Of a stretch of DNA of 23,508 bases, positions 4,560 through 21,729 are shown one piece after another (positions within the stretch are counted from its first letter, which is position 1; every line of letters begins with the position of its first letter). The stretch lies in IMG/VR virus record IMGVR_UViG_3300022690_001711, positions 1 through 23,508 of that record. One strand, 5' to 3'. This DNA is from a virus. The notes beneath the pieces were generated by a model. That model was not told the DNA's origin. It was given only the letters and a program-made list of their open reading frames with translations, and made no database searches. The translations under genes were made by a program, and so were the position numbers.

Positions 4560-5279
4560 TTAGAAATATCTCTTGCTTTTAAATATATTGTATGTATCCA
4601 TGTTATTTTTAATTTTTGAGCTAGTTTTAGAATCTACAAATAACTCACCTAACAGTTCCTCCTCGTATGATGGATGCTTTGGTGGATCAGGTGTTACGCC
4701 TTTCTGAATTATAAATGGCATAACACCGTGTTGTAGGTGGTGTCTTCCTGCAAAACAGCAAATCATTAATGCCCTAGTCAGATTATCCAACTCATCTCCT
4801 GGTGCATAATATGAGATGGTACCTGATTCTGTGGTATGTTCAGTAAACATCTCCACTTGTGAGATTAGCTTTTTCATGGTATCAGTTGGGTTTGGAGGGA
4901 ACTGTATCTTGTGGTCTTGCTTTAGGGATAACAATAACTGAGTCATTTCTGTCTGGTCCATAACTTTAATTTTTTCAATATCTTCTGGATCTTTGAGATT
5001 TTTCTGGGTGGTGATTGTATGCATGATAAATCCTACTTCATGTTCTATGTTCCTGATTAAGGATTGGCCTATTAACTGATCAGCAAAAGTATCAGTCCAT
5101 TGTATTTTTTTGTGTAACTCTTTGACATCTGTAGGGATTTGGTTTAGGTTATCTCTACTCCATTGTTTTGCCAATCTTACATATGCAGTTTTTTTCTTTT
5201 CATCTAGCTCTATCCCAATCATTCCAAATGCGTTTCTATGTTTGGAATGAGAGAATGCTACGATAGTGTCATTATTCAT
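4560..5279 (-). CDS. Degenerate second copy of the terminase nuclease domain
   Basis: 239 residues from ATG 5279; the longer frame up to a GTG at 5366 overlaps another gene and is rejected. The protein aligns by eye with the terminase nuclease at 5430-5981. NAFGMIGIELDEKKKTAYVRLAKQW matches DAFGAVGLQ...KIYIRHAKQF. MDQTEMTQLLLSLKQDHKIQFP matches VDKPYMIGWLKTEYKKHTIQYP. MKKLISQVEM...SGTISYY matches MAELLNQQNEM...SGHVSYK, then DELDNLTRALMICC matches HDDLFLCKLIGCN. The first catalytic Asp (D10 of the copy upstream) is replaced within FSHSKHR, and the second acidic motif ILENN has no clear counterpart (DQLIGQ). It may be an inactive partner, a regulator or a structural part of the packaging motor. 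A 60-residue C-terminal extension is unique to it. Confidence 0.75.
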   Translation of the reverse strand: MNNDTIVAFSHSKHRNAFGMIGIELDEKKKTAYVRLAKQWSRDNLNQIPTDVKELHKKIQWTDTFADQLIGQSLIRNIEHEVGFIMHTITTQKNLKDPEDIEKIKVMDQTEMTQLLLSLKQDHKIQFPPNPTDTMKKLISQVEMFTEHTTESGTISYYAPGDELDNLTRALMICCFAGRHHLQHGVMPFIIQKGVTPDPPKHPSYEEELLGELFVDSKTSSKIKNNMDTYNIFKSKRYF

Positions 5280-5433
5280 TTTCGTGTTTCCTACAATGTT
5301 GATAAAATACAACATAACCAGATTTTTCAAAAGCATTAGCAATTTTAAGAGAATTCCATAACTCACATTTGATGCAAATTACAATAGCATTACGTGGACA
5401 TGCACAAGGCATTCCATAATTAATTTGATTCAT
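5272..5433 (-). CDS. Small Cys/His protein between the two nuclease copies
   Basis: 53 residues, ATG at 5433 overlapping the TGA of the terminase nuclease (ATGA), and TAA at 5272-5274, eight bases inside the next gene. CAC (10-12), C20 and C23, then HCRKH near the end (46-50) suggest a zinc site. No family is recognised. The overlap on both sides is the main evidence that it is translated, and implies coupling with both nuclease-related genes. Confidence 0.6.
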   Translation of the reverse strand: MNQINYGMPCACPRNAIVICIKCELWNSLKIANAFEKSGYVVFYQHCRKHENE

Positions 5434-5981
5434 TGTTGATTATCCCACCAAATTCTAATCGCATTACATCCAATCAATTTACATAGAAACAAATCATCAT
5501 GTCTTCCTCTTTGTCTCTTATAAGATACATGACCTGATGGAGATGTTATTCCTACCATCTCGTTTTGTTGGTTTAGGAGTTCTGCCATGTCTACAGATTT
5601 GTTTGATGGATATTGGATTGTATGTTTCTTGTATTCTGTTTTAAGCCAGCCTATCATATATGGTTTGTCTACTGCCCATCCTTTGGATCTGTTCTTCTCT
5701 GTGAGATTCCCAGTTGTTGATACATAGGTTATGGGTAAATCTGCAAACGCTTTTGATACGTTCTCATAGTCAAAGTTATTCTCCAGTATCATCATGTCAG
5801 GTTTTACTTTATTTTGTAGGGTAGCAAAATGTTTTACAACTATTCCATATGGTTCATTCCAAAACTGCTTTGCGTGTCTAATGTAGATTTTTCTTTCAGG
5901 CCATGTTCCCTGTAATCCTACTGCACCAAATGCATCTCCACTACGAGCGGGATCGCCTACTAAAATTTTTAATGTCTTCAT
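5430..5981 (-). CDS. Terminase large subunit, nuclease domain (separate polypeptide)
   Basis: 183 residues, ATG at 5981 overlapping the TGA of the HNH gene. It is an RNase H-fold terminase nuclease: VGDPARSGDAFGAVGL gives catalytic D10, MMILENNF gives E67, and GRHDDLFLCKLIGC gives D162/D163. The usual K...W/Y-rich middle (GWAVDKPYMIGWLKTEYKK) is present. In tailed viruses this domain is normally fused after the ATPase and cuts concatemeric DNA at the start and end of packaging. Here it is an independent gene that begins exactly where the nuclease domain would start, while the ATPase is at 7125-8132. The ATPase ends just after its own linker, so the large subunit is split at the domain boundary. 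Confidence 0.85.
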   Translation of the reverse strand: MKTLKILVGDPARSGDAFGAVGLQGTWPERKIYIRHAKQFWNEPYGIVVKHFATLQNKVKPDMMILENNFDYENVSKAFADLPITYVSTTGNLTEKNRSKGWAVDKPYMIGWLKTEYKKHTIQYPSNKSVDMAELLNQQNEMVGITSPSGHVSYKRQRGRHDDLFLCKLIGCNAIRIWWDNQQ

Positions 5982-6478
5982 TTTAGATTATGGGGACAAA
6001 TGTTATTTTTATCCTGTCCTCGTGCTTGATTGCAATTATGACATAAAACTTGAAATCCTTCTGGATAGTTATTTTTTCTCACATATCTATACATCACTGC
6101 TCCATGTAATCCTTTTTTACGGTCTTCAGCACCATTATTGTTAATATGATCAAGAGCTAGAAATTCAATTATATTTTCATTACAGCAAGCACATTTTGGA
6201 ATACCATTTGAATAATGAGTGAACACTTCTATTTTCAATTTTAACTCACGTTTTCTATTTCGTTCTCGTTCTTTTATAACGAATAATGGATTTTTCATTC
6301 TTTTGTGGTGGTTTAATCTATTTTGTTTATTGAGTTGATCACGATGTTCTTCAGCCCACTTTTTACGATAAGTAAGATATTGTTGGTGAGTAACTTTCTT
6401 TTTACAATCTAAACGTGTACAATATTTTTGACGGTTACTATTTCGTTTAAAATCATTACCACATATTTTACAGTTCAT
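5978..6478 (-). CDS. HNH endonuclease, probable free-standing homing-type
   Basis: 166 residues, ATG at 6478. There is an N-terminal zinc ribbon (CKIC at 3-6, C20, C25), a very basic middle (residues 30-85), then the HNH module: CACC (96-99), LALDHINNNGAEDR with H111, and QVLCHNCNQARG (C146, C149) with an N at 148. This arrangement is typical of phage HNH endonucleases with an N-terminal DNA-binding ribbon. It lies between the two halves of the terminase and overlaps the nuclease gene by ATGA. Such enzymes often sit in or beside packaging genes, and their insertion can split a gene. HNH proteins beside terminase can also take part in packaging itself, so a homing origin is an inference. Confidence 0.8.
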   Translation of the reverse strand: MNCKICGNDFKRNSNRQKYCTRLDCKKKVTHQQYLTYRKKWAEEHRDQLNKQNRLNHHKRMKNPLFVIKERERNRKRELKLKIEVFTHYSNGIPKCACCNENIIEFLALDHINNNGAEDRKKGLHGAVMYRYVRKNNYPEGFQVLCHNCNQARGQDKNNICPHNLK

Positions 6479-6488
6479 TTTACTTCCA

Positions 6489-6605
6489 TTATATTCTCAT
6501 TCCACATTCCCTGCATTGAGGTCTGTCCTTTTGCTTCTTTGAATGTGGATCTTTGTTAGATGCAAATTCATTTCCACATGTACAATTATAGACTTTGAGA
6601 GTCAC
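6489..6605 (-). CDS. 38-residue zinc-ribbon protein
   Basis: The start is GTG at 6605, which overlaps the TAG of the preceding coiled-coil gene (TAGTG); TAA is at 6489-6491. It has two knuckles, CTCGN (8-12) and CRECGM (31-36), separated by about 20 mostly polar residues, a minimal zinc ribbon. It is one of several tiny ribbon proteins in the window. Its function is unknown. It sits directly before the HNH gene, with a 10-base gap. Confidence 0.55.
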   Translation of the reverse strand: MTLKVYNCTCGNEFASNKDPHSKKQKDRPQCRECGMRI

Positions 6606-7042
6606 TAGTTCTCAAGTTCTTTGATGTCTTTACCTGTTGCATCTAGAATGATGTTTTTGAGTATGCGTTGAGTAAGTTTGTGATTTTTTTGAATGTCTGT
6701 GCTTGATTCTTCAGAGATTAACCCTTCAAAGTGAATATCACTTGTTGCTCTTTTGATTATTTCATCTACTATCTTTTGGTTTTGTTCTATCTTTTGAGAA
6801 TTTCTTAATTGTAGAAATTCTGCAGTCGGAATAATCTTTGAATTTTGTAATTTGTTCATGACTGTTTCATGTCCTGTCTTTGGAAGTTCCAATATTATTT
6901 CATTTATTATTTTTCCAAGTTCATCTATTTGGGATTTCATGAGTTTAATTACTTCTCGTAATTCTTCATTTTTTGTGTGCAAAAAAGAAATTAGTTTTTG
7001 GTCGTCTGTTTGGTTATTTGTTTTCATGTTATTCTGTAACAT
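6605..7042 (-). CDS. Coiled-coil protein of unknown function in the packaging region
   Basis: 145 residues from ATG 7042 (a second Met at codon 6 is possible). Residues 10-60 (LISFLHTKNEELREVIKLMK then QIDELGKIINEIIL) and 75-105 are strongly helical with heptad-like hydrophobics; the end is LKNIILDATGKDIKELEN. The position between terminase ATPase and nuclease could fit a small-terminase-like DNA-binding or oligomerising subunit, but no helix-turn-helix is visible, so that is a guess. It has a TATA-like box and an adjacent palindrome upstream, so it may be expressed separately from the ATPase. Confidence 0.65.
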   Translation of the reverse strand: MLQNNMKTNNQTDDQKLISFLHTKNEELREVIKLMKSQIDELGKIINEIILELPKTGHETVMNKLQNSKIIPTAEFLQLRNSQKIEQNQKIVDEIIKRATSDIHFEGLISEESSTDIQKNHKLTQRILKNIILDATGKDIKELEN

Positions 7043-7048
7043 ATACCG

Positions 7049-7057
7049 CCTTATATC
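7049..7057 (-). promoter_or_regulatory. TATA-like box for the coiled-coil gene
   Basis: GATATAAGG on the minus strand ends six bases before the window of 7043 and sits 7-15 bases from the ATG if a short count is used; the AT stretch spacing is therefore close to the start. It is weaker support than elsewhere, but the adjacent palindrome (7058-7072) marks this as a control region. Confidence 0.3.
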
Positions 7058-7072
7058 TGTTACATAGTAACA
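7058..7072. promoter_or_regulatory. Operator-like palindrome TGTTAC-ATA-GTAACA
   Basis: A perfect 6-3-6 palindrome directly upstream of the TATA-like ATATAA and the coiled-coil gene. A third half-site, TGTAAC, follows at 7035-7040. It is a likely binding site for a dimeric repressor such as one of the RHH proteins; the binding partner is not known. Confidence 0.45.
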
Positions 7073-7124
7073 TCATGTTCTTTTATCCTATCAATAACTT
7101 TAGAGACTTCATGATGTAATCTAT

Positions 7125-8132
7125 CTATTCCCATTCCACATTTTCTTTTTCTGGCGTATCATCATCTATTTCCCACTCATCCATCCCTTGTTGATCCTGT
7201 ATAGTTATAGTTCCAAATATGCTGTCTCGTCCTGCACTGGCCTTACACATGTATTCTTGTTGTGGGTCTTCAGTACTGCTTGAAATCATTTTATCCACTT
7301 GTGCTTGGGTGTATAGATTACCTATTGCTCGTTCTATTGTATATTCCAAAAATACAAAATCAGCACTCTTTTCAACCCATATTTTATAAAACATCTTTAG
7401 TGGTCCTTTGAAGGTGGATACTAGAAATAAGTCTGCAGCATTAGAACGAATGATAGGCATTACACTGTTAAATACGGGAGTATCATCTACCAATTTCCAT
7501 TTTGCTGATTCATCCATAAAGATACATGCGTATTTAGTATCTCCAGTTATTGCTTCCTCAGATGCTGGGAATGCCTCTATTGTAGTTCCGTTAATAATTG
7601 AGAGTACACTTGATTTAATTCCGTTAGGTACGACACTCTGTATATGAATGAATAACTGCATGAATCGTCTTAGATTTTTGTTTGCTAGTTTGCCATTTAC
7701 GGCTGCGATTATGCCAACTTTAGATCCTACATACCTACTAAAGCAAAAGTGAAAGATTACTCTTAATACAATCTCTGTGAATCCCATCTGTCGTCCTTTT
7801 AGTATATGGAACATGTGCTCTAATCTGTCCCAATCGTCCTGTGTCATAGTATCAGGTTTTGTGACTGCCTGAAATACTGCCTCGATAAACTCTAGTTGGT
7901 ATGGAGTGGGTGGCATCTCCTTTTTTGTTGCTGCATGTACTGGTAAGCCAGATACGTGCATGGTACAGCAAAAATCGTTATAGTATGTGTCATTAGTGAG
8001 ATGTTTTGTATTATCACCACACCAAAAAGGAATGTTTCCCATTTTTTGACATATCTCTTGAGGGGATAGTAGATTGGTATTATCAGTTTTAGGTTTTTGT
8101 TCCAGTTGTGTTAGATGAGTATCAATATTCAT
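7125..8132 (-). CDS. Terminase large subunit, ATPase domain (separate polypeptide)
   Basis: 335 residues from ATG 8132; a TTG at 8144, directly after the upstream TGA, would add four residues. The ATPase features, numbered from the TTG, are a lambda-type Walker A, LKGRQMGFTE (residues 115-124), with Lys early in the loop instead of GKT; Walker B, YACIFMDESAK (205-215), with catalytic Glu; and a coupling motif, LVSTFKGP (241-248). It ends after the linker-like EYMCKASAGRDSIFG with an acidic tail. There is no nuclease domain; that is encoded 1.1 kb downstream. The enzyme drives DNA into the prohead through the portal. A full-length terminase is normally 450-600 residues, so this is a clean half. 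Confidence 0.85.
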   Translation of the reverse strand: MNIDTHLTQLEQKPKTDNTNLLSPQEICQKMGNIPFWCGDNTKHLTNDTYYNDFCCTMHVSGLPVHAATKKEMPPTPYQLEFIEAVFQAVTKPDTMTQDDWDRLEHMFHILKGRQMGFTEIVLRVIFHFCFSRYVGSKVGIIAAVNGKLANKNLRRFMQLFIHIQSVVPNGIKSSVLSIINGTTIEAFPASEEAITGDTKYACIFMDESAKWKLVDDTPVFNSVMPIIRSNAADLFLVSTFKGPLKMFYKIWVEKSADFVFLEYTIERAIGNLYTQAQVDKMISSSTEDPQQEYMCKASAGRDSIFGTITIQDQQGMDEWEIDDDTPEKENVEWE

Positions 8133-8144
8133 GAACTGACACAA

Positions 8145-10607: not shown

Positions 10608-10912
10608 TATAATGCTCTCTCCCATTTTGCATCCTGACGCCAGGTCTTTAATACAATCCAACAAGTAACTTGGTGGAATTTGGCTGCATACTCACATACT
10701 CTATCTTTTTCTTTAGGTGAAATGTACGCCTTTGTTTTAGAATATTTCAGTTGAGCTTCACAGTATCGCCCATCTTGTTCTACCCAGTACACATCCATTA
10801 CTCCCTTGCTTGCAAAGAATCGTTTTGCAATTATTGCCCTTCCTGACTTTAACAAATCATTACAGAATCTACTTTCATAGGAAGCACCTTTACGGTAATT
10901 GAAATTTGGCAT
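10607..10912 (-). CDS. Archaeal Holliday junction resolvase-like nuclease (Hjc family)
   Basis: 101 residues, ATG 10912 overlapping the previous TAA. It matches the Hjc pattern: NYRKGASYESRFCNDLLKSG (Glu13 in the first helix), AIIAKRFFASKGVMDVYWV (S35 and D40), then RYCEAQLKYSK, the PD-(D/E)XK strand with Q54-x-K56 in place of the more usual E-x-K, and the C-terminal AKFHQVTCWIVLKTW. Hjc enzymes are homodimers that cut four-way junctions symmetrically. In a virus this would resolve branched replication or packaging intermediates. The size is slightly short of the usual 120-140 residues. Confidence 0.8.
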   Translation of the reverse strand: MPNFNYRKGASYESRFCNDLLKSGRAIIAKRFFASKGVMDVYWVEQDGRYCEAQLKYSKTKAYISPKEKDRVCEYAAKFHQVTCWIVLKTWRQDAKWERAL

Positions 10913-14516: not shown

Positions 14517-14526
14517 TACTTAAAAT
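14517..14526 (-). promoter_or_regulatory. TATA-like box of the integrase operon
   Basis: TTTTAAGTAA on the minus strand lies 20-29 bases before the ATG at 14497. One arm of the inverted repeat 14524-14579 runs into it. Confidence 0.45.
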
Positions 14527-14579
14527 GATAGCTTTTACACTCTCATTTTCTTGTAAATGGATTTGGAAAAGCTGTCATT
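14524..14579. repeat. Inverted repeat overlapping the integrase promoter
   Basis: AATGATAGCTTTT (14524-14536) and AAAAGCTGTCATT (14567-14579) are inverted copies matching at 12 of 13 positions with a 30-base spacer. Because one arm touches the TATA box, a repressor binding both arms could control integrase expression. The gap 14498-14619 holds no gene. Confidence 0.55.
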
Positions 14580-14619: not shown

Positions 14620-14826
14620 TTAACTATCTCTACACCCGATCTTTTGCTGTGATGCCTTTGCATTCTTCCATGCGTTTGATAAAGATCTTTTGAGTGTGAT
14701 CAGCCAGTTTGATATGATGTGGGTATAGATCATAATAGTTATCTCCTCTCCACATCCTATACAAATTTTTACATCTAATAAATTAGATATGGGTGCATGA
14801 CAGGACTTGCAACGTTTCATACCCAT
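14620..14826 (-). CDS. Zinc-ribbon protein, last gene of the overlapping chain
   Basis: 68 residues; ATG 14826 shares its A with the previous TAA (TAATG), and an ATG two codons later is also possible. The ribbon is RCKSCHAPI (C6, C9) and ICIGCGEEI (C22, C25). The rest is a hydrophobic helix, IMIYTHIISNWLITLK, which might touch a membrane, and a basic Ser/Lys-rich end. No family is recognised. Confidence 0.6.
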   Translation of the reverse strand: MGMKRCKSCHAPISNLLDVKICIGCGEEITIMIYTHIISNWLITLKRSLSNAWKNAKASQQKIGCRDS

Positions 14827-15134
14827 TATTGATACTTGTCTTTAATTACAGACTTACCATAATCCTCTGCGAAATATGTCAAGAGTTTCATGGATTCATC
14901 ATCAAAGAGAATTTTTAATATTTTCATATCATTAATAGACAAAACACGGTTGAGAAAAGATAATGCTGCACCCTCCAAAACATGTACTATTTTTTGATTT
15001 TTAATTATTTCTAGTCTTAGTTTCTCTGCTTGTTGTGTAGTGTCAAAGTGTGGAGTGTGCACGTAATAATATGTGGTTTTGTTAAATGAATCATAAACTT
15101 CTTTCTCTACTGTGTAATCTGTTTGCTTTGTCAT
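14826..15134 (-). CDS. Unknown 102-residue protein
   Basis: ATG 15134 overlaps the previous TGA (ATGA). The first half is strand-rich with many Tyr and Thr (KTTYYYVHTPHF); then come helices QQAEKLRLEIIKNQKIVHVL, LSFLNRVLS, and MKLLTYFAEDYGKSVIKD. It is one of the larger members of the chain. No family is recognised. Confidence 0.6.
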   Translation of the reverse strand: MTKQTDYTVEKEVYDSFNKTTYYYVHTPHFDTTQQAEKLRLEIIKNQKIVHVLEGAALSFLNRVLSINDMKILKILFDDESMKLLTYFAEDYGKSVIKDKYQ

Positions 15135-15337
15135 TTTTCAACCTTCACATTATTGTAATACTGTCTTGCGTGGATTTCATTTTGTGTCTTTTTTACTGCT
15201 TGGAGTATTGCTTCTAAATCTTTAAGATCTGGATGTAAAACTGCTACGTCATTTTTTCCATTTGGAATCTTACACATGAATCCGTCTCTAGATATACGAA
15301 AATACAATGCTTTTTGATTCCATATTATTTCACTCAT
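15131..15337 (-). CDS. Small protein with LKxLExIxQAVKKTQ motif
   Basis: 68 residues; ATG 15337 overlaps the previous TGA (ATGA). It starts with short strands (KALYFRISRDGFMCKIP) and contains LKDLEAILQAVKKTQNEI, nearly identical to the helix in the C2H2 protein at 1456-1704. Here the zinc finger is replaced by a short basic end. It is probably a virus family with a shared helix and variable ends. Confidence 0.6.
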   Translation of the reverse strand: MSEIIWNQKALYFRISRDGFMCKIPNGKNDVAVLHPDLKDLEAILQAVKKTQNEIHARQYYNNVKVEK

Positions 15338-15546
15338 TTTCTTTTTTCACCCTCTACCTTTGGTTGGATATGTATTGCACAAGATTTTTTCAAATATTTT
15401 ACAGATAGTAATCCATCAGCATCACCCTTGCATACAGCAATCATGTTATCACGAATAGTAACACCGTCAATAGTTATGGAATTATTTGGAGCAGCAGATA
15501 ATTCAATTCCCTCAAAACCAGTTATTTTTCCTAAATCCTCATTCAA
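15334..15546 (-). CDS. Unknown beta-rich 70-residue protein
   Basis: The start is TTG 15546, overlapping the previous TGA (TTGA) and preceded by GGAG from the repeated junction sequence. The protein has strands ITGFEGIELSAAPNNSITID, GVTIRDNMIAVC and GLLSVKYLKKSCAIHIQP, an all-beta look. Both cysteines could be structural. No family is recognised. Confidence 0.6.
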   Translation of the reverse strand: MNEDLGKITGFEGIELSAAPNNSITIDGVTIRDNMIAVCKGDADGLLSVKYLKKSCAIHIQPKVEGEKRK

Positions 15547-15570
15547 TTCTCTTTCTCCATAGAGTGTATT
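15543..15570. repeat. Repeated gene-junction sequence, copy 1
   Basis: On the minus strand the end of one gene and the start of the next read AATACACTCTATGGAGAAAG followed by AGAATTGA. It matches the junction at 16117-16144 at 25 of 28 bases. It supplies GGAG about 8-10 bases before the TTG and ends in the TTGA stop/start overlap. Confidence 0.75.
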
Positions 15571-15758
15571 GTGGTAAAAAGAGGCTCTAATCCTAATAGT
15601 ATTCTTTGTTGTCTTTTTCGGTCAAATTGTTCATGTATTCTTGTGGCAGTAAGTGTTCTATCTTTTCTTGTTACATGATGGCATACACAGCTTGAGGAAG
15701 TTAATAGGACAAAAATAATCATTAATAATATCCAATTTGTTACAAGAAACTCAATCAA
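15543..15758 (-). CDS. Small single-pass membrane protein
   Basis: 71 residues; probable TTG start at 15758, overlapping the previous TGA (TTGA). Residues 4-24 (FLVTNWILLMIIFVLLTSSS) are one clear membrane helix, followed by CVCHH and a very basic cytoplasmic-type stretch, RKDRTLTATRIHEQFDRKRQ. It is the only clear membrane protein in the chain. The CxCHH just after the membrane may bind a metal. It ends with TIHSMEKEN, encoded by the repeated junction. Confidence 0.65.
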   Translation of the reverse strand: MIEFLVTNWILLMIIFVLLTSSSCVCHHVTRKDRTLTATRIHEQFDRKRQQRILLGLEPLFTTIHSMEKEN

Positions 15759-16120
15759 TTCTTAACATTCTCCTGGGACTGTCTTGTTTGAAAAAAACAA
15801 TTTTGACATCTTTTGCATTGTTTAATAGTTGCAAGTATAGTTCCATAAAATTTGATTTCTATAGTGTCAGGTACAACTAATTTTTTATTGTCTACGTGTC
15901 CAAAGAATAGACCATGTTTAACATTTTCCATATTCTGTATTTCTTGAACCGTCTTTATATCAGCATATTTAATTTTTGTATTTCTATCATACCATTCTCT
16001 ACCATATATCCCCAACAGTTTTCGATGCATCATAATTTTTGTATCTTGATGAAGTGGTAATTCCATACATTTGTTGCACATCAATGCAGTAGATCCATGA
16101 CATTTACAAGTGCAACTCAA
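15755..16120 (-). CDS. Protein with zinc knuckles at both ends
   Basis: 121 residues from TTG 16120, overlapping the previous TGA (TTGA); a longer frame to 16189 would run deep into the previous gene. The N-terminus is SCTCKCHGSTALMCNKC (C3, C5, C7, H8, C15, C18) and the C-terminus is QCKRCQNCFF. The middle has helices and strands (YADIKTVQEIQNMENV, DTIEIKFYGTILATI). The two ends may form one composite zinc site or two. The function is unknown. Confidence 0.65.
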   Translation of the reverse strand: MSCTCKCHGSTALMCNKCMELPLHQDTKIMMHRKLLGIYGREWYDRNTKIKYADIKTVQEIQNMENVKHGLFFGHVDNKKLVVPDTIEIKFYGTILATIKQCKRCQNCFFQTRQSQENVKN

Positions 16121-16144
16121 TTTCCTCTCTCCATAGAGTGTATT
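16117..16144. repeat. Repeated gene-junction sequence, copy 2
   Basis: The minus strand reads AATACACTCTATGGAGAGAG followed by GAAATTGA. It is nearly identical to 15543-15570. A weaker third version (TGTATGGAGAAGGAG, then AAAATTGAGTGA) is at the 16368-16390 junction. Confidence 0.75.
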
Positions 16145-16371
16145 TCTTGGGAATTGGAAGTTTCTGAATCTTTTAGCAGACTTAAGCATAATTGGATTTG
16201 ATATTCAAGTACATCGTTGAATGTGTATGATTTACGAATGTACCATCGTTTTTTTAATGCCTTTCTTAGTTTAATTTTCTCATAGACTAATTTTGTTAGT
16301 TTAAGAGATGATTCTATTTCTTCCTCACTGTATAATTCATTTGTAAATTTGAATTGGTATAGTTCACTCAA
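16117..16371 (-). CDS. Unknown 84-residue helical protein
   Basis: The start is TTG 16371, overlapping the previous TGA (TTGA) with GGAG and GGAG-like purines upstream. It begins SELYQFKFTNELYSEEEIE and continues as long basic helices (KLTKLVYEKIKLRKALKKRW, LEYQIQLCLSLLKD). It ends EIHSMERGN, encoded by the junction repeat. No family is recognised. Confidence 0.6.
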   Translation of the reverse strand: MSELYQFKFTNELYSEEEIESSLKLTKLVYEKIKLRKALKKRWYIRKSYTFNDVLEYQIQLCLSLLKDSETSNSQEIHSMERGN

Positions 16372-16574
16372 TTTTCTATCTCCTTCTCCATACATTGCAA
16401 CCATTTAAGATGTGCTTCATCTTGTACTTTACCTTGATCTACTATTATCAAAGCTCTTTTATCTTTAGTCCAGTGTTTTACTTTATAATATAATTCACCA
16501 TCTTTTCTACTTGTGGAAAATTCAACTTGTCCAGCTTCAAAGTAATTGATTTCTGGTGTTCTAATTGTTTTCAT
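16368..16574 (-). CDS. Unknown 68-residue protein
   Basis: The start is ATG 16574, overlapping the TGA of the 31-residue ORF upstream (ATGA); an ATG at 16595 in the same frame is the alternative. Strand-rich: YFEAGQVEFSTSRKDGELYY, KVKHWTKDKRALIIVDQG. It ends with a helix, DEAHLKWLQCMEKEIEN, encoded partly by the junction repeat. No family is recognised. Confidence 0.6.
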   Translation of the reverse strand: MKTIRTPEINYFEAGQVEFSTSRKDGELYYKVKHWTKDKRALIIVDQGKVQDEAHLKWLQCMEKEIEN

Positions 16575-16666
16575 ATCATTCTCATCCTGTACCATTGCTT
16601 TAGAGTGTCGTGTATTAGGTTTGATCCTGAGTGGATTGATTTGGCACTAAACACTTTAGGATTCAA
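16571..16666 (-). CDS. 31-residue peptide linked to both neighbours by overlaps
   Basis: TTG at 16666 overlaps the TGA of the gene before (TTGA), and its own TGA at 16571-16573 overlaps the ATG of the next gene (ATGA). The peptide is NPKVFSAKSIHSG then a helix ending QWYRMRMI. There is no recognisable motif. Without it this would be the only gap in an otherwise unbroken 25-gene chain, which is the reason to accept it; it may serve only to couple translation. Confidence 0.45.
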   Translation of the reverse strand: MNPKVFSAKSIHSGSNLIHDTLKQWYRMRMI

Positions 16667-16812
16667 CAATTCTGAGTCCTCAATCTTGATTCACGCCTAT
16701 TTCTTTTACAATAAATGCATCTATAATTGATATAACATGTATCCCATCCACATATCATTTCCTGATGTTCACATGGTTTATTGATTACCTCATCAGCAAA
16801 AGTTACGGTCAT
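16663..16812 (-). CDS. 49-residue Cys-rich protein
   Basis: ATG 16812 overlaps the previous TGA (ATGA). The zinc ligands are probably C14 and H16, C21, C26, C32 and C35 (PCEH, CGWDTC, CIYC), and a basic end, KRNRRESRLRTQNC. This looks like a small metal-stabilised nucleic-acid-binding protein. No family is recognised. Confidence 0.6.
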   Translation of the reverse strand: MTVTFADEVINKPCEHQEMICGWDTCYINYRCIYCKRNRRESRLRTQNC

Positions 16813-17021
16813 GATTGACACTTACCTCGAGATGTTTTGTATCGCTTAGTCCAAATAGTGGAATTACACCAATAACAACCAAGTACGATTGTTCCATCAA
16901 ATAGTTGATGATTACCACAAGAACAGTGACCACATTCTGAACAAGTCCACCATTTCGCACCTTCTTTACAATAAGGCACATCGCACCAACCAGAACCTAG
17001 TCCTTTGTATTCTTGTTTCAT
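16809..17021 (-). CDS. 70-residue Cys/Trp-rich zinc protein
   Basis: ATG 17021 overlaps the previous TGA (ATGA). Nine cysteines: WCDVPYC (13-19), TCSECGHCSCGNH (27-39) and GCYWC (49-52), consistent with two interleaved zinc sites (B-box or treble-clef-like spacing). The end is basic. No family is recognised. Confidence 0.65.
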   Translation of the reverse strand: MKQEYKGLGSGWCDVPYCKEGAKWWTCSECGHCSCGNHQLFDGTIVLGCYWCNSTIWTKRYKTSRGKCQS

Positions 17022-17170
17022 GCTTGACGTTCTCTCCTTTCGGTTACTTGGCAGTTTTTACAAGTGAGATATTCGACCTGATATTTTGTTTTACCAATAA
17101 TACCACATTTTACACATATTTTCAAACCTCTCTTAACCGTTTGATTATTTTGTTTTGTTTGTGCTGTCAT
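17018..17170 (-). CDS. 50-residue zinc-ribbon protein
   Basis: ATG 17170 overlaps the TGA of the preceding gene (ATGA), and its TGA overlaps the next ATG. A ribbon is formed by ICVKCGIIG (C19, C22) and LTCKNCQV (C37, C40). Both tails are basic and polar (QTKQNNQTVKRG, ERRERQA), suggesting nucleic-acid binding. Confidence 0.6.
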   Translation of the reverse strand: MTAQTKQNNQTVKRGLKICVKCGIIGKTKYQVEYLTCKNCQVTERRERQA

Positions 17171-17277
17171 GATCCCCATGTCCTTTCGAATAAACAATCT
17201 TCACATAATTGCTTATGTTCAAACATTTCTTTAGTTATTTCCTCTCTACATTCTTTACACTCTAATGATTTTGTCAT
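17167..17277 (-). CDS. 36-residue zinc-ribbon peptide
   Basis: ATG 17277 and TGA 17167-17169, both overlapping neighbours (ATGA). The whole protein is one zinc site: LECKECREEI (C7, C10) and LCEDCLFER (C25, C28). It is about the smallest fold that a single zinc can hold together. The function is unknown. Confidence 0.55.
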   Translation of the reverse strand: MTKSLECKECREEITKEMFEHKQLCEDCLFERTWGS

Positions 17278-17504
17278 GCGTTATCTCCTGGTAATTCGTT
17301 AAGTTTGTATTCTTGAAACCATTCTATTTTTTTTATTATTTCCTTAGCAGCATCTATCCAAGTGATTGATAATTCAGCTTGATTGTATTTGTAATTATCT
17401 TTTAGAAATTGTGTTCTATCTTCTTTCCATTCACTGATAAATTTTTGATATATATCTAATTTTTGTTTGTTTTCTTCTGCAAGACGTGTTAATTCATTTG
17501 TCAT
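17274..17504 (-). CDS. Unknown 76-residue helical protein
   Basis: The start is ATG 17504, overlapping the previous TGA (ATGA), not the ATG at 17531. Almost entirely helical: TRLAEENKQKLDIYQKFISE, EDRTQFLKDNYKYNQ, and SITWIDAAKEIIKKIEWFQE. It probably folds as a helical bundle or coiled coil. No family is recognised. Confidence 0.6.
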   Translation of the reverse strand: MTNELTRLAEENKQKLDIYQKFISEWKEDRTQFLKDNYKYNQAELSITWIDAAKEIIKKIEWFQEYKLNELPGDNA

Positions 17505-17722
17505 TGACCTGATACCTCGTCTGTATTGCATTCACAGTCATTATGACAATGCTTATGTTTTCTATGTTTGACACAGATACAAACTCCATTCCATTTTTCA
17601 TCTTCCACTTTACCTTTTTCTTTAACGGTCAAGCCTAAACCTTTGACGTTTGGATGTTCTTTGCCACAAGTCATGCACAAACCCATGTGGTAGTAACTTG
17701 AGGTATGTTCATGTTCAGTCAT
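17501..17722 (-). CDS. 73-residue His/Cys-rich protein
   Basis: ATG 17722 overlaps the TGA of the preceding 32-residue gene (ATGA). Metal-binding residues: HEHTSSYYHMGLCMTCGKEH near the start, and CICVKHRKHKHCHNDCEC near the end. The density of His and Cys suggests more than one zinc, or general metal binding. No family is recognised. Confidence 0.6.
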   Translation of the reverse strand: MTEHEHTSSYYHMGLCMTCGKEHPNVKGLGLTVKEKGKVEDEKWNGVCICVKHRKHKHCHNDCECNTDEVSGQ

Positions 17723-17817
17723 AATCTTTCTCCACATTTAGGACAGAATGGAAATTTAGTGCAATCTTGTGCTATTGCAACATGTAAGTGATTTAGGTTA
17801 CACTTTGTTTTACTCAT
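17719..17817 (-). CDS. 32-residue zinc-ribbon peptide
   Basis: ATG 17817 and TGA 17719-17721, both in ATGA overlaps. It has C6, H10/H12, C19, and a perfect knuckle FCPKCGERL (C25, C28). It is a complete miniature zinc finger and little else. Confidence 0.55.
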   Translation of the reverse strand: MSKTKCNLNHLHVAIAQDCTKFPFCPKCGERL

Positions 17818-18104
17818 TTCTGCACCTCACCTTTGTTTGAATCTGTTAAGATTGACTTTCTTGAAGTATCATAATCAGAAATTAATTTTACCAATTTTTT
17901 ATGAATGTTAGAAAGTTCATTATCCCATTTTGACATATTTGATAAATAGTCACGTATAGTTTCAATATCTTGAATTAAATCCTCAATGAGTTGCTCTTTA
18001 TGTAAATCCTCAGATCTTCCAATAATAGATCTCATATCACTTCGTAAATTTCTAGCTGTATCAGATTCTTCACCAGTTAAACGGATTCTTAGGTGAGTTT
18101 CCAT
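17814..18104 (-). CDS. 96-residue coiled-coil protein
   Basis: ATG 18104 shares its A with the previous TAA (TAATG). The first 25 residues are polar and Arg-rich (ETHLRIRLTGEESDTARNLR); residues 35-85 are long amphipathic helices (EQLIEDLIQDIETIRDYLSN, NELSNIHKKLVKLISDYD). A dimeric or bundle-forming protein is likely. There is no zinc motif, unlike its neighbours. Confidence 0.65.
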   Translation of the reverse strand: METHLRIRLTGEESDTARNLRSDMRSIIGRSEDLHKEQLIEDLIQDIETIRDYLSNMSKWDNELSNIHKKLVKLISDYDTSRKSILTDSNKGEVQK

Positions 18105-18256
18105 TACGCACTACTCCTTGTTTGAAGTGTATTTTCCAAGCAACAATAACAAATTATCATAGTAGGATCAGTACAATTTGAATTAGATGTTAAAGTGTCA
18201 CCACATGGAGACGTATCTTTACAAACAATACAACTATGATAACCACATTCACACAT
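18104..18256 (-). CDS. 50-residue Cys-rich protein with ten cysteines
   Basis: ATG 18256 shares its A with the previous TAA (TAATG), and its own TAA overlaps the next ATG. The cysteines are CEC (2-4), CIVC (9-12), C18, C28, and CYCC (36-39). This suggests two zinc sites or a disulphide-free metal cluster. It is one in five Cys, the highest in the window. No family is recognised. Confidence 0.6.
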   Translation of the reverse strand: MCECGYHSCIVCKDTSPCGDTLTSNSNCTDPTMIICYCCLENTLQTRSSA

Positions 18257-18393
18257 TAGTCATATTCCTCACTATCACAAGTTATTGGTTCATGTGATTC
18301 AAGATCATAAATTGATGGGAAATGACATTTACATGTACATTCTGGTTGATCATTATTACAATATCTACAAGCATTTGAAAAGTAACCCATCAT
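18256..18393 (-). CDS. 45-residue Cys-rich protein
   Basis: ATG 18393 (a second ATG follows) overlaps the TGA of the preceding gene (ATGA); TAA 18256-18258 overlaps the next ATG. ACRYCNNDQPECTCKCH (C9, C12, C19, C21, C23, H24) is the metal-binding part. The acidic end is SHEPITCDSEEYD. It resembles the N-terminus of the 15755-16120 protein (CTCKCH in both). Confidence 0.6.
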   Translation of the reverse strand: MMGYFSNACRYCNNDQPECTCKCHFPSIYDLESHEPITCDSEEYD

Positions 18394-18587
18394 ACTTTAC
18401 CTCCTGAATGATCTGTGAAATTCGGAATAGAATCAAATGATTTTATTATTTCATCTGCAACCTTTTGAGCATCTTTCTTAATGATTTTAGTGTGTGCTGT
18501 TAGTCTAGTGTGTTCTTCTACAAATTTTTTATCCATACAAAGAAAACACTTTTGACATTGCCAATTCTCTATTTCACGTTTATTCAA
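18390..18587 (-). CDS. C2H2-like zinc-finger protein
   Basis: 65 residues from TTG 18587, overlapping the preceding TGA (TTGA); a TTG at 18602 would overlap more. The finger region is WQCQKCFLCMDKKFVEEHTR then LTAH: C-x2-C-x2-C and two His, a C2H2 with an additional Cys. A helix follows (KIIKKDAQKVADEIIKSF). The finger-plus-helix order may point to a regulator. Confidence 0.6.
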   Translation of the reverse strand: MNKREIENWQCQKCFLCMDKKFVEEHTRLTAHTKIIKKDAQKVADEIIKSFDSIPNFTDHSGGKV

Positions 18588-18811
18588 TACTGTTTCCCCC
18601 AATAATCTACTCTGCCTAATTTTTTATCATCATGTGTTGGTTTGAAAGCGTCCATACATTCAATGCATAACCATGCTGGAAAGAATGGACTATCTCGTGT
18701 AATTCTGTATTTTTTCAAAAACATTCCTTGACCATCACATTTGATACATGGATGTTCGCCTCTAGGATTTGCAAACGTTTGACAGTCTTTTACAAGTGTC
18801 TTGCTAGTCAA
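18584..18811 (-). CDS. 75-residue zinc protein
   Basis: The probable start is TTG 18811, eight bases inside the previous gene. The fold is held by HPCIKCDGQGMF (C22, C25, like the DnaJ-type CxxCxGxG knuckle) and WLCIECMDAF (C49, C52). The rest is basic. The CxxCxGxG half-motif is suggestive but a full DnaJ-type finger has four. Confidence 0.6.
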   Translation of the reverse strand: MTSKTLVKDCQTFANPRGEHPCIKCDGQGMFLKKYRITRDSPFFPAWLCIECMDAFKPTHDDKKLGRVDYWGKQY

Positions 18812-18956
18812 GTAAATCAGTCCATCCTCTTTCTAATGCGTGTTTTCTTAATGCAAATCTTGTCTCATCAATCTTATCAAGACAACTTTTCATGTCATCG
18901 AAAGTGTGTCCTGTAGGAATCTTTCCACAAACTAAACACTTTAGATTAACAGTCAT
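18804..18956 (-). CDS. 50-residue zinc-binding protein
   Basis: ATG 18956 overlaps the preceding TGA (ATGA); TAG at 18804-18806. Zinc ligands: CLVCGKIP (C7, C10), H17 and C25, with helices DDMKSCLDKI and RFALRKHALERGW. It looks like a compact treble-clef finger. It is the first of the zinc proteins after the three regulators. Confidence 0.6.
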   Translation of the reverse strand: MTVNLKCLVCGKIPTGHTFDDMKSCLDKIDETRFALRKHALERGWTDLLD

Positions 18957-19357
18957 GTTTCTAACTCGAGAATAATTGCCTTTTGAACATTAATTACTTG
19001 TAGCATATCTTTGATTTTGTGCTCGATTGGTGCTGTTGGATCTCTGGCCTTTAATTTATCATCAAGTGCTGCTATTTGATTTTTAGTGAGTTTGTGTTCT
19101 ATTTTTATCACTGTTTCATATTCGTGCATGAATAAAAATCCCAGATCTGTAACCCTTAATGGTGTTAAAGTTACTAGACCACGTTTGACCAATTTAAACA
19201 CTATATCCTTTGTTTTATTGTATGCCATTTTTGCACGCAATTGGATATTGGTTAGTTTAAAGGTTGATTTGCCTTGATACTCATCCCTGTCTAATTCTGT
19301 AGAGATGGCTTGTAGTATGTCGTATGACATTCTTAGTTTGGACCTTTTTTCAGTCAT
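18953..19357 (-). CDS. Archaeal winged-helix transcriptional regulator
   Basis: 134 residues; ATG 19357 shares its A with the preceding TAA (TAATG). The N-terminal 80 residues match the archaeal winged-helix pattern: KRSKLRMSYDILQAISTELD, TFKLTNIQLRAKMAYNKTKD, FKLVKRGLVTLTPLRVTDLG, then LFMHEYETVIKIE. The C-terminal helix (residues 88-134) could dimerise. The order strand-helix-wing with VTDLGFLF is typical of the PF14947-like (HTH_45) type, as I recall it. It probably controls its own chain. Confidence 0.75.
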   Translation of the reverse strand: MTEKRSKLRMSYDILQAISTELDRDEYQGKSTFKLTNIQLRAKMAYNKTKDIVFKLVKRGLVTLTPLRVTDLGFLFMHEYETVIKIEHKLTKNQIAALDDKLKARDPTAPIEHKIKDMLQVINVQKAIILELET

Positions 19358-19650
19358 TAACTAATCACTCTTAACACTGTTCCAGTATTTTTTAATTCAA
19401 TTGTAAAGTTCTTGCTTTTAATGTAATACAGATATTCAGGATGACCTATACTACCTTCACCGTTTTTTATTGTTACAATATTATTCCATTTTTTTAGATC
19501 TTTGATAAGACGATAAGCTGTAACAGTTGTAATATCTGATTTCTCAGCAATTGTTTCAATGTTTATAGCTGATATTTTACTTTTAGGAAAATGTGATAAT
19601 AATTTTATTCCAGTTGGAGAAAGAATGGCAGAGATGAGAGATTCATTCAT
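19357..19650 (-). CDS. Winged-helix / ArsR-like regulator
   Basis: 97 residues; ATG 19650 shares its A with the preceding TAA (TAATG). Helix-turn-helix: SPTGIKLLSHFP, INIETIAEKSDITTVTAYRL, IKDLKKWNNIVTI, and a wing with SIGHPEYLYYIK. The typical spacing of an ArsR- or TrmB-like winged helix is present. It is the second of three consecutive DNA-binding genes. Confidence 0.7.
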   Translation of the reverse strand: MNESLISAILSPTGIKLLSHFPKSKISAINIETIAEKSDITTVTAYRLIKDLKKWNNIVTIKNGEGSIGHPEYLYYIKSKNFTIELKNTGTVLRVIS

Positions 19651-19793
19651 TACTTTACTACCTTCTTTAGCTGTTCCTCTATTACCCGTGAAAAAGATAT
19701 GGAATAGTCAGCATTTGCTTGCTGTTTTGCCTGAATTATTCTAAGTTTTTTGTTCATGCTGTCTGATAGCACAATTGTTATTCTCTTTGTCAT
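19650..19793 (-). CDS. Ribbon-helix-helix regulator, first gene of the 25-gene chain
   Basis: 47 residues, ATG 19793, TAA overlapping the next ATG (TAATG). TKRITIVLSDSMNKKLRIIQ is the CopG-type strand and first helix; SISFSRVIEEQLKKVVK is the turn and second helix. It is a textbook RHH monomer. It is preceded by a TATA-like box at -19 to -31. It likely represses the chain's promoter. Confidence 0.8.
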   Translation of the reverse strand: MTKRITIVLSDSMNKKLRIIQAKQQANADYSISFSRVIEEQLKKVVK

Positions 19794-19824: not shown

Positions 19825-19918
19825 GTTGTTATGAATAATATAATTTGTTAATAAGGAATTAAACAATATATTATATTATTAAGATTTAGAAAAAATATAG
19901 AGTTGACTTGTCAATTTT

Positions 19919-19926
19919 AAAAAAAA
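19919..19926 (-). terminator. T8 terminator after the small membrane-protein genes
   Basis: On the minus strand TTATTTTTTTTAAAATT follows the 26-codon ORF and the two membrane-protein genes. It separates them from the promoter of the chain. The gap 19827-20111 otherwise holds only a 26-codon hydrophobic ORF and one copy of a 16-base repeat. Confidence 0.4.
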
Positions 19927-19938
19927 TAAGGTATTTTT

Positions 19939-20019
19939 TTATGCTGTAGTGCCTATAATTGCTGCAACATCTATTGCCAAGGCGGCAATACTAATTGTGT
20001 ATGGTCCTATATCTGCCAT
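19939..20019 (-). CDS. Possible 26-residue hydrophobic peptide
   Basis: ATG 20019, TAA 19939-19941. The peptide ADIGPYTISIAALAIDVAAI then IGTTA would form one membrane helix. An AT-rich TATA-like stretch (CTTAAATGC, 32-41 bases upstream) and a T8 tract just after it are compatible with a small independent gene. Its size makes it doubtful. Confidence 0.3.
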   Translation of the reverse strand: MADIGPYTISIAALAIDVAAIIGTTA

Positions 20020-20074
20020 GAAAAGTATTATTCATCTCATGCATTTAAGCTATTTTATTTAAGGTACTTTTGAG

Positions 20075-20090
20075 AGTTCACTGAAATATT
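20075..20090. repeat. 16-base repeat AGTTCACTGAAATATT, copy 1
   Basis: Exact copy of 21679-21694 in the same orientation, 1.6 kb apart. Both copies are in non-coding gaps. Confidence 0.7.
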
Positions 20091-20111
20091 CTTTAAAATG
20101 GATTATTTATT

Positions 20112-20252
20112 TTATTTTGTCCATTCATGGCTACATTTAGGACATATTTTAATTTCAAAATTTACTAATTTACGACATTTAGGACATTGATGTTTTGTTA
20201 ATCTCCACAAAAATAACCCACCTGCAATTATTGCCAGTATAGGAAGTACCAT
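20112..20252 (-). CDS. Small membrane protein with double zinc knuckle
   Basis: 46 residues; ATG 20252 shares its A with the preceding TAA (TAATG). Residues 2-17 (VLPILAIIAGGLFLW) are a short membrane helix; the rest is a zinc ribbon, QCPKCRKLV (C23, C26) and ICPKCSHEW (C37, C40). A membrane-anchored ribbon could tether a protein or nucleic acid to the membrane. It is coupled to the membrane protein before it. Confidence 0.6.
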   Translation of the reverse strand: MVLPILAIIAGGLFLWRLTKHQCPKCRKLVNFEIKICPKCSHEWTK

Positions 20253-21575: not shown

Positions 21576-21678
21576 TATATTATAATCCGAAGTTTTGCTA
21601 AGATTGGCAATGTCAATAATAATTGGTAATTAAATGATATAAAATGATCCTTGATCGCAAAGGTTAGAGTCTGATCGA

Positions 21679-21694
21679 TAGTTCACTGAAATAT
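21679..21694. repeat. 16-base repeat AGTTCACTGAAATATT, copy 2
   Basis: Second exact copy, in the 154-base gap between the DUF2130-like gene and the 120-residue gene. The gap also has GATCG-containing direct repeats (21654 and 21673 region). Confidence 0.7.
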
Positions 21695-21729
21695 TTACTA
21701 AATAGTTTAATCACTATTTTTCACCATAA

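Follow-up and report, generated by a model that had tools for sequence, protein, structure and literature searches.

How can an operon keep its genes overlapping without a single spacer base when nearly all of those genes are replaced in its relatives? The question is raised by the minus strand of IMG/VR record IMGVR_UViG_3300022690_001711, of which the whole 23,508-nucleotide (nt) stretch (here called the window) was analyzed and in which 25 open reading frames (ORFs) run in one chain from position 19793 to 14620. A sequence-only reading of this DNA had called attention to the density, the coding nature, and the zinc-type proteins of the chain, and these points hold; it overlooked the strongest feature, namely, short sequences at the gene borders (joints) that recur between unrelated genes in a largely collinear order. 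We propose that the chain is probably a translationally coupled accessory operon of micro-genes whose members are exchanged at these conserved joints.

An unbroken chain of 25 overlapping genes

The 25 minus-strand ORFs tile positions 14620 to 19793 completely (100% of 5,174 nt), and neighbors overlap at all 24 joints, by 4 nt (n = 18), 1 nt (n = 5), or 8 nt (n = 1). The sequence-only reading had described an unbroken 25-gene chain with overlaps of 1, 4, or 8 bases and no intergenic base over 5.2 kb, and all three statements were borne out. For genes 11, 12, 14, 16, 18, 19, and 20, the start of the longest ORF was shifted inward to the overlapping ATGA or TTGA. Sixty dinucleotide shuffles of the region stayed at or below 46% coverage, yielded two or fewer overlaps of 1 or 4 nt, and strung together three touching ORFs at the most; the opposite strand reached 58% coverage with two such overlaps. 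Shine-Dalgarno-like matches were found at 20 of 24 chain starts versus 13 to 14% of other positions, a comparison in which the gene caller itself favors such matches, although the overlaps leave it little choice within the chain.

The products are small (19 of 25 have 76 amino acids [aa] or fewer). The ratios of nonsynonymous to synonymous substitution rates (dN/dS) were low for the genes that could be compared: 0.20 for gene 3, 0.40 for gene 17, 0.12 to 0.40 for gene 18, 0.47 for gene 23, and 0.25 for a C2H2-type gene present in two relatives. Judged by these ratios, the chain genes with homologues are under purifying selection. In the relatives, the genes were not broken by stop codons or frameshifts; they were mostly replaced by other small genes, many of which overlap again. 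The unusual density of the chain and its reality as coding sequence are supported.

Recurring joints between replaced genes

Four relatives (G1, G2, G3, and L014) came from IMG/VR, and L063 was added through a joint pattern. G1 (L003, L012/L013; IMGVR_UViG_3300023222_000452; 44.3 kb) and G2 (L004, L010/L011; IMGVR_UViG_3300026541_000038; 49.1 kb) end in exact direct terminal repeats of 144 bp and 117 bp, respectively, and are therefore probably complete genomes; G3 (L006), L014, and L063 are 11.7, 9.4, and 9.6 kb long. The lineage of the large terminase subunit (TerL) and portal protein is common to the window, G1, and G3, the TerL proteins of L014 and L063 have about 624 aa (623 in L063), and G2 carries different virion genes yet an integrase that is 85% identical. 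The small-gene module lies beside the integrase in the window and G1, before TerL in G2 and L014, and between TerL and portal in G3.

Two of the relatives have cores with about 85 to 90% identity. The core of the window matches G1 at 85 to 94% DNA identity, with core proteins 87 to 96% identical. Within the chain, only gene 18, the borders, and the joints match G1 at the DNA level, and the stretch between the conserved borders otherwise differs almost wholly; chain genes that are retained between viruses are 44 to 84% identical. In G1, too, small ORFs are densely lined up on one strand in the replaced region, with an RHH-like gene first and gene 3 included, but with more gaps than the chain in the window.

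Each joint spans about 20 to 35 nt and comprises the last codons of the upstream gene (in frame), a Shine-Dalgarno sequence, and the overlapping stop and start. Because joints encode the last codons of the upstream gene, unrelated proteins share tails such as ..IHSMEKEN, ..SQENVKN, and ..MEKEIEN. All of the following lie on the minus strand of the window. Joint A (GAGGTATCAGGTCAATGA, 17501 to 17518) is matched over 29 nt at 93% in G1 (18213 to 18241) and occurs at G2 36630, joint B (ACCGAAAGGAGAGAACGTCAAGCATGA, 17018 to 17044) at G1 18411, G2 37683, and L014 1011, and joint B' (CTCGAGGTAAGTGTCAATCATGA, 16809 to 16831) at L014 1123 with a score of 19. Joint E (AATGTATGGAGAAGGAGATAGAAAATTGA, 16368 to 16396) is found in G1, G2, and L014. 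The first copy of joint C (AATACACTCTATGGAGAGAGGAAATTGA, 16117 to 16144) has counterparts at G1 19675, G2 39670, and G3 7631, and the second copy (AATACACTCTATGGAGAAAGAGAATTGA, 15543 to 15570) is 89% identical to the first. Joint D (GACAGTCCCAGGAGAATGTTAAGAATTGA, 15755 to 15783) has two copies in G1 and two in G2, and joint F (CCAACCAAAGGTAGAGGGTGAAAAAAGAAAATGA, 15334 to 15367) belongs to the family of G1 20471, G2 40831, and L014 2712. A joint remnant, G (AAATACAGAATATGGAAAATGTTAAACATGG, 15912 to 15942), lies inside gene 20 and resembles the joints at G1 19889 and G2 39821.

Recurrence was scored on 81 joints (positions −32 to +4) from five viruses, aligned on the start codon. Pairs with homologous neighboring genes (BLASTP E < 0.01) were excluded and 3,187 pairs were scored, with a null in which each column was shuffled across joints so that the Shine-Dalgarno and start consensus was retained. 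Fifteen non-homologous joint pairs scored at least 18, versus 0.02 expected; with six viruses, 23 pairs scored at least 16, versus about 0.3 under the null. No pairs appeared at offsets of at least 40 nt upstream or at least 45 nt downstream, the virion and replication (late) genes of these viruses, with 53 overlapping joints, had no recurring pair, and the same test returned none in HF2, T4, SPO1, or lambda. A signal was detected in the positive control, mycobacteriophage TM4 (NC_003387), which carries start-associated sequences. In IMG/VR pattern scans for joints C, D, and E, other matches were nearly all due to chance and lay inside coding sequence, with L063 the sole useful addition.

The sequence of joint families, A-B-B'-E-C-G-D-F, is largely shared among the viruses. 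When joint order was permuted, the observed collinear score was reached in 0 of 500 permutations for G1 and G2, 1 of 500 for G2 and G3, 2 of 500 for the window and G2, 11 of 500 for G1 and L014, and 26 of 500 for the window and G3. Between the joints, the genes differ, so that one joint sequence stands beside non-homologous genes in different relatives. The gene after joint E is a different, unrelated one in each of the window, G1, G2, and L014, and the slot from E to C holds one gene in the window (84 aa), G2 (99 aa), and G3 (76 aa) and two in G1 (63 and 44 aa) and L014 (32 and 50 aa).

Two footprints, one of insertion and one of probable fusion, lie at joints. Gene 18 of G2 has no joint E tail; extra genes come next, and the joint E sequence is met again about 530 nt downstream, an insertion beside the joint. 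Gene 20 of the window (15755 to 16120, minus strand, 121 aa) is probably a fusion of two former genes, since its internal joint (15942 to 15912) has lost both the Shine-Dalgarno sequence and the stop. Separately, L063 carries at 660 to 720 a hybrid joint in which AATACACTCTATGGAGAA (family C) runs into GGAGATAGAAAATG (family E), upstream of its 623-aa TerL. In G2 (39821 to 40494, in reverse-complement coordinates of the 49,129-base record; L010/L016), a chain gene is tandemly duplicated (76% aa identity), and the second copy is fused to a new N-terminal part of 72 residues.

Proposed roles of the joints in recombination and translation

The exchange that we propose would work as follows. The operon would be polycistronic and consist of ordered, exchangeable gene slots, with each joint supplying an in-frame tail that the protein can do without. 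Where a joint is present in two copies, a crossover between them would swap the intervening gene or genes, one or two at a time. Because it falls within the joint, neither reading frame would be disrupted, and the termination-reinitiation signal and the expression of the operon would be kept. The micro-genes themselves may be under selection for rapid turnover. An AlphaFold2 (AF2) model of gene 18 reached a predicted local distance difference test (pLDDT) score of 73, and its last residues, the joint-encoded tail, scored about 49, as would be expected if the tail were expendable.

More tentatively, the joints might be dedicated adaptor sites, that is, ordered couplings of recombination and translation through which single micro-genes pass between viruses with different virion backbones. 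On this possible but doubtful extension, genes would be shuttled by virtue of homology in the standard junction and not in the genes or through the integrase.

Several points weigh against exchange at joints. No recombination event was observed among the compared genomes, no recombinase other than the integrase was found near the chain, and the joints could be kept through selection on translation alone. About half of the joints in the window, and no more, belong to recurring families, and in scans of 2.9 million viral contigs these sequences turned up as true gene joints in this small group only. Collinearity is weak for the window and G1 (39/500), the window and L014 (48/500), G2 and L014 (50/500), and G1 and G3 (246/500); the scores are helped by clustered C and D copies, and the pairwise tests are not independent. 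Gene calling in the relatives was ours and includes errors (e.g., G2 39159).

The main rival to exchange at joints attributes them to regulation at gene starts. The cluster K mycobacteriophages carry start-associated sequences (SAS) and extended SAS (ESAS), short conserved sequences with a Shine-Dalgarno element at the starts of unrelated small non-structural genes (PMC3203893). Our joints could likewise be regulatory sequences recognized by the ribosome, an RNA, or a protein, with genes turning over in some other way and joints being copied or evolving anew. We regard this account as unlikely, if less so than the other rivals. The joints sit exactly at starts and include a Shine-Dalgarno sequence, the SAS of TM4 yield the same signal in our test, and SAS too are tied to different gene families (PMC3203893). 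The likeness includes position and company: in both systems, a conserved Shine-Dalgarno-bearing sequence stands directly upstream of different gene families and is confined to non-structural genes, with no recurring pairs in our late modules. However, SAS form one 13-bp consensus (GGGATAGGAGCCC, plus the inverted repeats of ESAS), whereas families A to G are discrete and differ both from it and among themselves. The joints are also longer (about 20 to 35 nt), occupy the coding end of the preceding gene, with an overlapping stop and start, and are collinear across virus backbones; similarity among them continues for up to about 20 nt before the Shine-Dalgarno sequence, into coding sequence. Collinear order and the footprints of insertion and fusion would not be predicted for a purely functional motif. 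Selection on translation and recombination at joints can, moreover, hold together.

An ordinary dense early operon, in which joint similarity reflects the Shine-Dalgarno and start consensus plus a few local duplications, is improbable and already disfavored. Dense small CxxC genes do occur in HF2 and other HF1-group haloviruses (PMC7230728), and some genes of the chains are duplicates lying side by side (G2 39821/40048), but shuffles that keep the consensus leave about 0.3 pairs versus the 23 observed, and neither HF2, T4, SPO1, and lambda nor the viruses' own late genes gave any. Still less credible is that genes in the same slot are orthologues that diverged past recognition while the joints were conserved: slot order is indeed the same, but core proteins of the window and G1 are 87 to 96% identical, retained chain genes are 44 to 84% identical, and corresponding slots differ in gene number and in the presence of Cys sites. 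That a large number of the shortest ORFs might be spurious is suggested by the weak codon-usage signal in Cys-rich ORFs (the true frame is the best of six in 13 of 25) and is very unlikely given full tiling, overlaps that measure 1 or 4 nt at 23 of the 24 joints, Shine-Dalgarno matches at 20 of 24 starts, and a dN/dS that stays under 0.5 in an ORF as short as 31 aa.

Chain proteins, borders, and host

The head of the chain had been read as an RHH regulator followed by two winged-helix regulators, which is plausible but not proven. Gene 1 (19650 to 19793, 47 aa; like all chain genes, on the minus strand) is RHH-like, and its counterpart at the head of the chain in G1, the closest relative, has 45% identity; it gave no convincing Pfam match. 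Gene 2 (19357 to 19650, 97 aa) resembles HTH_11 at E = 3.5e-5, one bit below the Pfam cutoff. Gene 3 (18953 to 19357, 134 aa) is winged-helix-like (HTH_45, E = 0.002) and 44 to 47% identical in G1; as a single-protein query it matched no viral relative, and its AF2 model was of low confidence (pLDDT 45). Eleven of genes 4 to 16 (16663 to 18956) encode CxxC micro-proteins of 32 to 75 aa. Gene 17 (16571 to 16666, 31 aa) has 76% aa identity in G2, and gene 23 (15131 to 15337, 68 aa) has 84%. Gene 18 (16368 to 16574, 68 aa) is the sole chain gene present in all four main relatives (55 to 76% identity); no fold in PDB or BFVD matched its model significantly.

A CxxC pair with further Cys or His residues occurs in 13 of 25 chain proteins and in 12 of the 19 with up to 76 aa, which makes it fair to say, as the sequence-only reading did, that most of the small genes carry Cys/His zinc sites. 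The opposite strand has 2 such ORFs of 25 (Fisher P = 0.0015 versus the 13 in the chain), and the chain contains 23 CxxC pairs versus 6.3 expected by residue shuffling (maximum of 15 in 2,000 shuffles). Cys content is 4.6% in the chain versus 0.4 to 0.6% in the large genes of G1 and G2; since opposite-strand ORFs are equally Cys-rich (4.4%), overall content alone is uninformative, and the spacing of the Cys residues is the distinctive feature. Conservation of the proposed zinc ligands could be seen solely in the few homologous pairs (CxxC...H...H in G1 and G3, CxxC...CxxC in G1 and G2). The small zinc proteins have no confident family assignment.

The CxxC cluster stands apart from the virion genes, as in the HF1/HF2-group haloviruses, where small CxxC proteins are encoded outside the virion module in early-transcribed regions (PMC7230728). 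By analogy with that group, an early gene set directed against host functions is plausible; the zinc proteins would probably be expressed early and act on host regulation or defense, possibly as adaptors or inhibitors that target transcription, translation, or defense in the host.

The chain is flanked by two conserved borders, both on the minus strand. The left border, a conserved operon leader (19878 to 20120), is 87% identical to L003 1880 to 2144 and holds a repeated ATATTTCAGT..CAAAAG element together with TTAAATA-like boxes. Copies of ATATTTCAGT....CAAAAG stand upstream of gene blocks at window positions 20089 and 21677 to 21702 and at G1 15844 and 23430, followed in two cases by TTAAATA-like boxes, and the element is a candidate viral promoter or operator. 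Just upstream of the chain, a 26-codon ORF (19939 to 20019, minus strand) encodes the hydrophobic peptide MADIGPYTISIAALAIDVAAIIGTTA, of which one residue differs in G1. The right border, upstream of the integrase, is a 60-nt element (14520 to 14579) with an inverted repeat (AGCTTTTAC...GTAAAAGCT) that is 92% identical in G1 (23464 to 23525) and G2 (27059 to 27119); it is a candidate attachment or regulatory site. Rfam gave no match.

The window (23.5 kb, 33% GC) is a piece of a tailed virus: its TerL matches Terminase_6N above the Pfam cutoff, as in Caudoviricetes. Other genes encode a Dam methylase, a DUF2130 protein, an integrase-like protein (Phage_integrase, E = 0.003, under the cutoff), and, judging from position, a probable portal. 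TerL appears to be in pieces (4560 to 8144), with an N-terminal part at 8144 to 7125, a C-terminal-like part at 5981 to 5430, a Cys/His-rich HNH-like ORF without a Pfam match between them (6478 to 5978), and an additional, similar ORF (5366 to 4560). Counterparts of the pieces are present in G1 and G3, and the arrangement may represent a terminase that is split and has an endonuclease inserted in it. Searches gave no support for reading positions 10912 to 10607 as an archaeal Hjc resolvase.

The top match of TerL in a phage collection was Nitrososphaera provirus Nvie-Pro1 (FR725450), a weak match (23.6% identity, E = 6e-9) on the basis of which an ammonia-oxidizing archaeon (Nitrososphaerota) would be the likely host. 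Integrase queries, single and aligned, found no relative in host genome contigs and matched no phage record, and neither did the portal and L014 TerL queries match a phage record.

Tailed viruses of archaea were already known to carry small CxxC genes in dense chains. The HF1/HF2 group shares with our viruses dense, often overlapping small genes and many CxxC micro-proteins; HF2 differs in having no recurring joints, the group in having no unbroken chain of 25, and Nvie-Pro1 in having no comparable small-gene chain annotated. Short boundary sequences have been proposed for the mosaicism of lambdoid phages, as cited in PMC3029335, and are reported there to be unidentifiable at most mosaic borders. 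Like our joints, they would be short and conserved and could direct homologous recombination; they were proposed for the edges of modules, whereas the joints lie at the edges of many single tiny genes. A limited literature search found no ordered array in which several joint families mark single-gene borders across different virion backbones.

Recurring boundary sequences are legible in this group at the borders of many single genes. They stand largely in order, show traces of insertion and fusion, and lie beside a core that is about 90% identical between viruses, and the boundary model thereby becomes directly testable on population data. The chain also provides a compact catalogue of fast-changing micro-proteins that are candidates for anti-host or anti-defense functions, in viruses that, if our guess at the host is true, infect ecologically important archaea.

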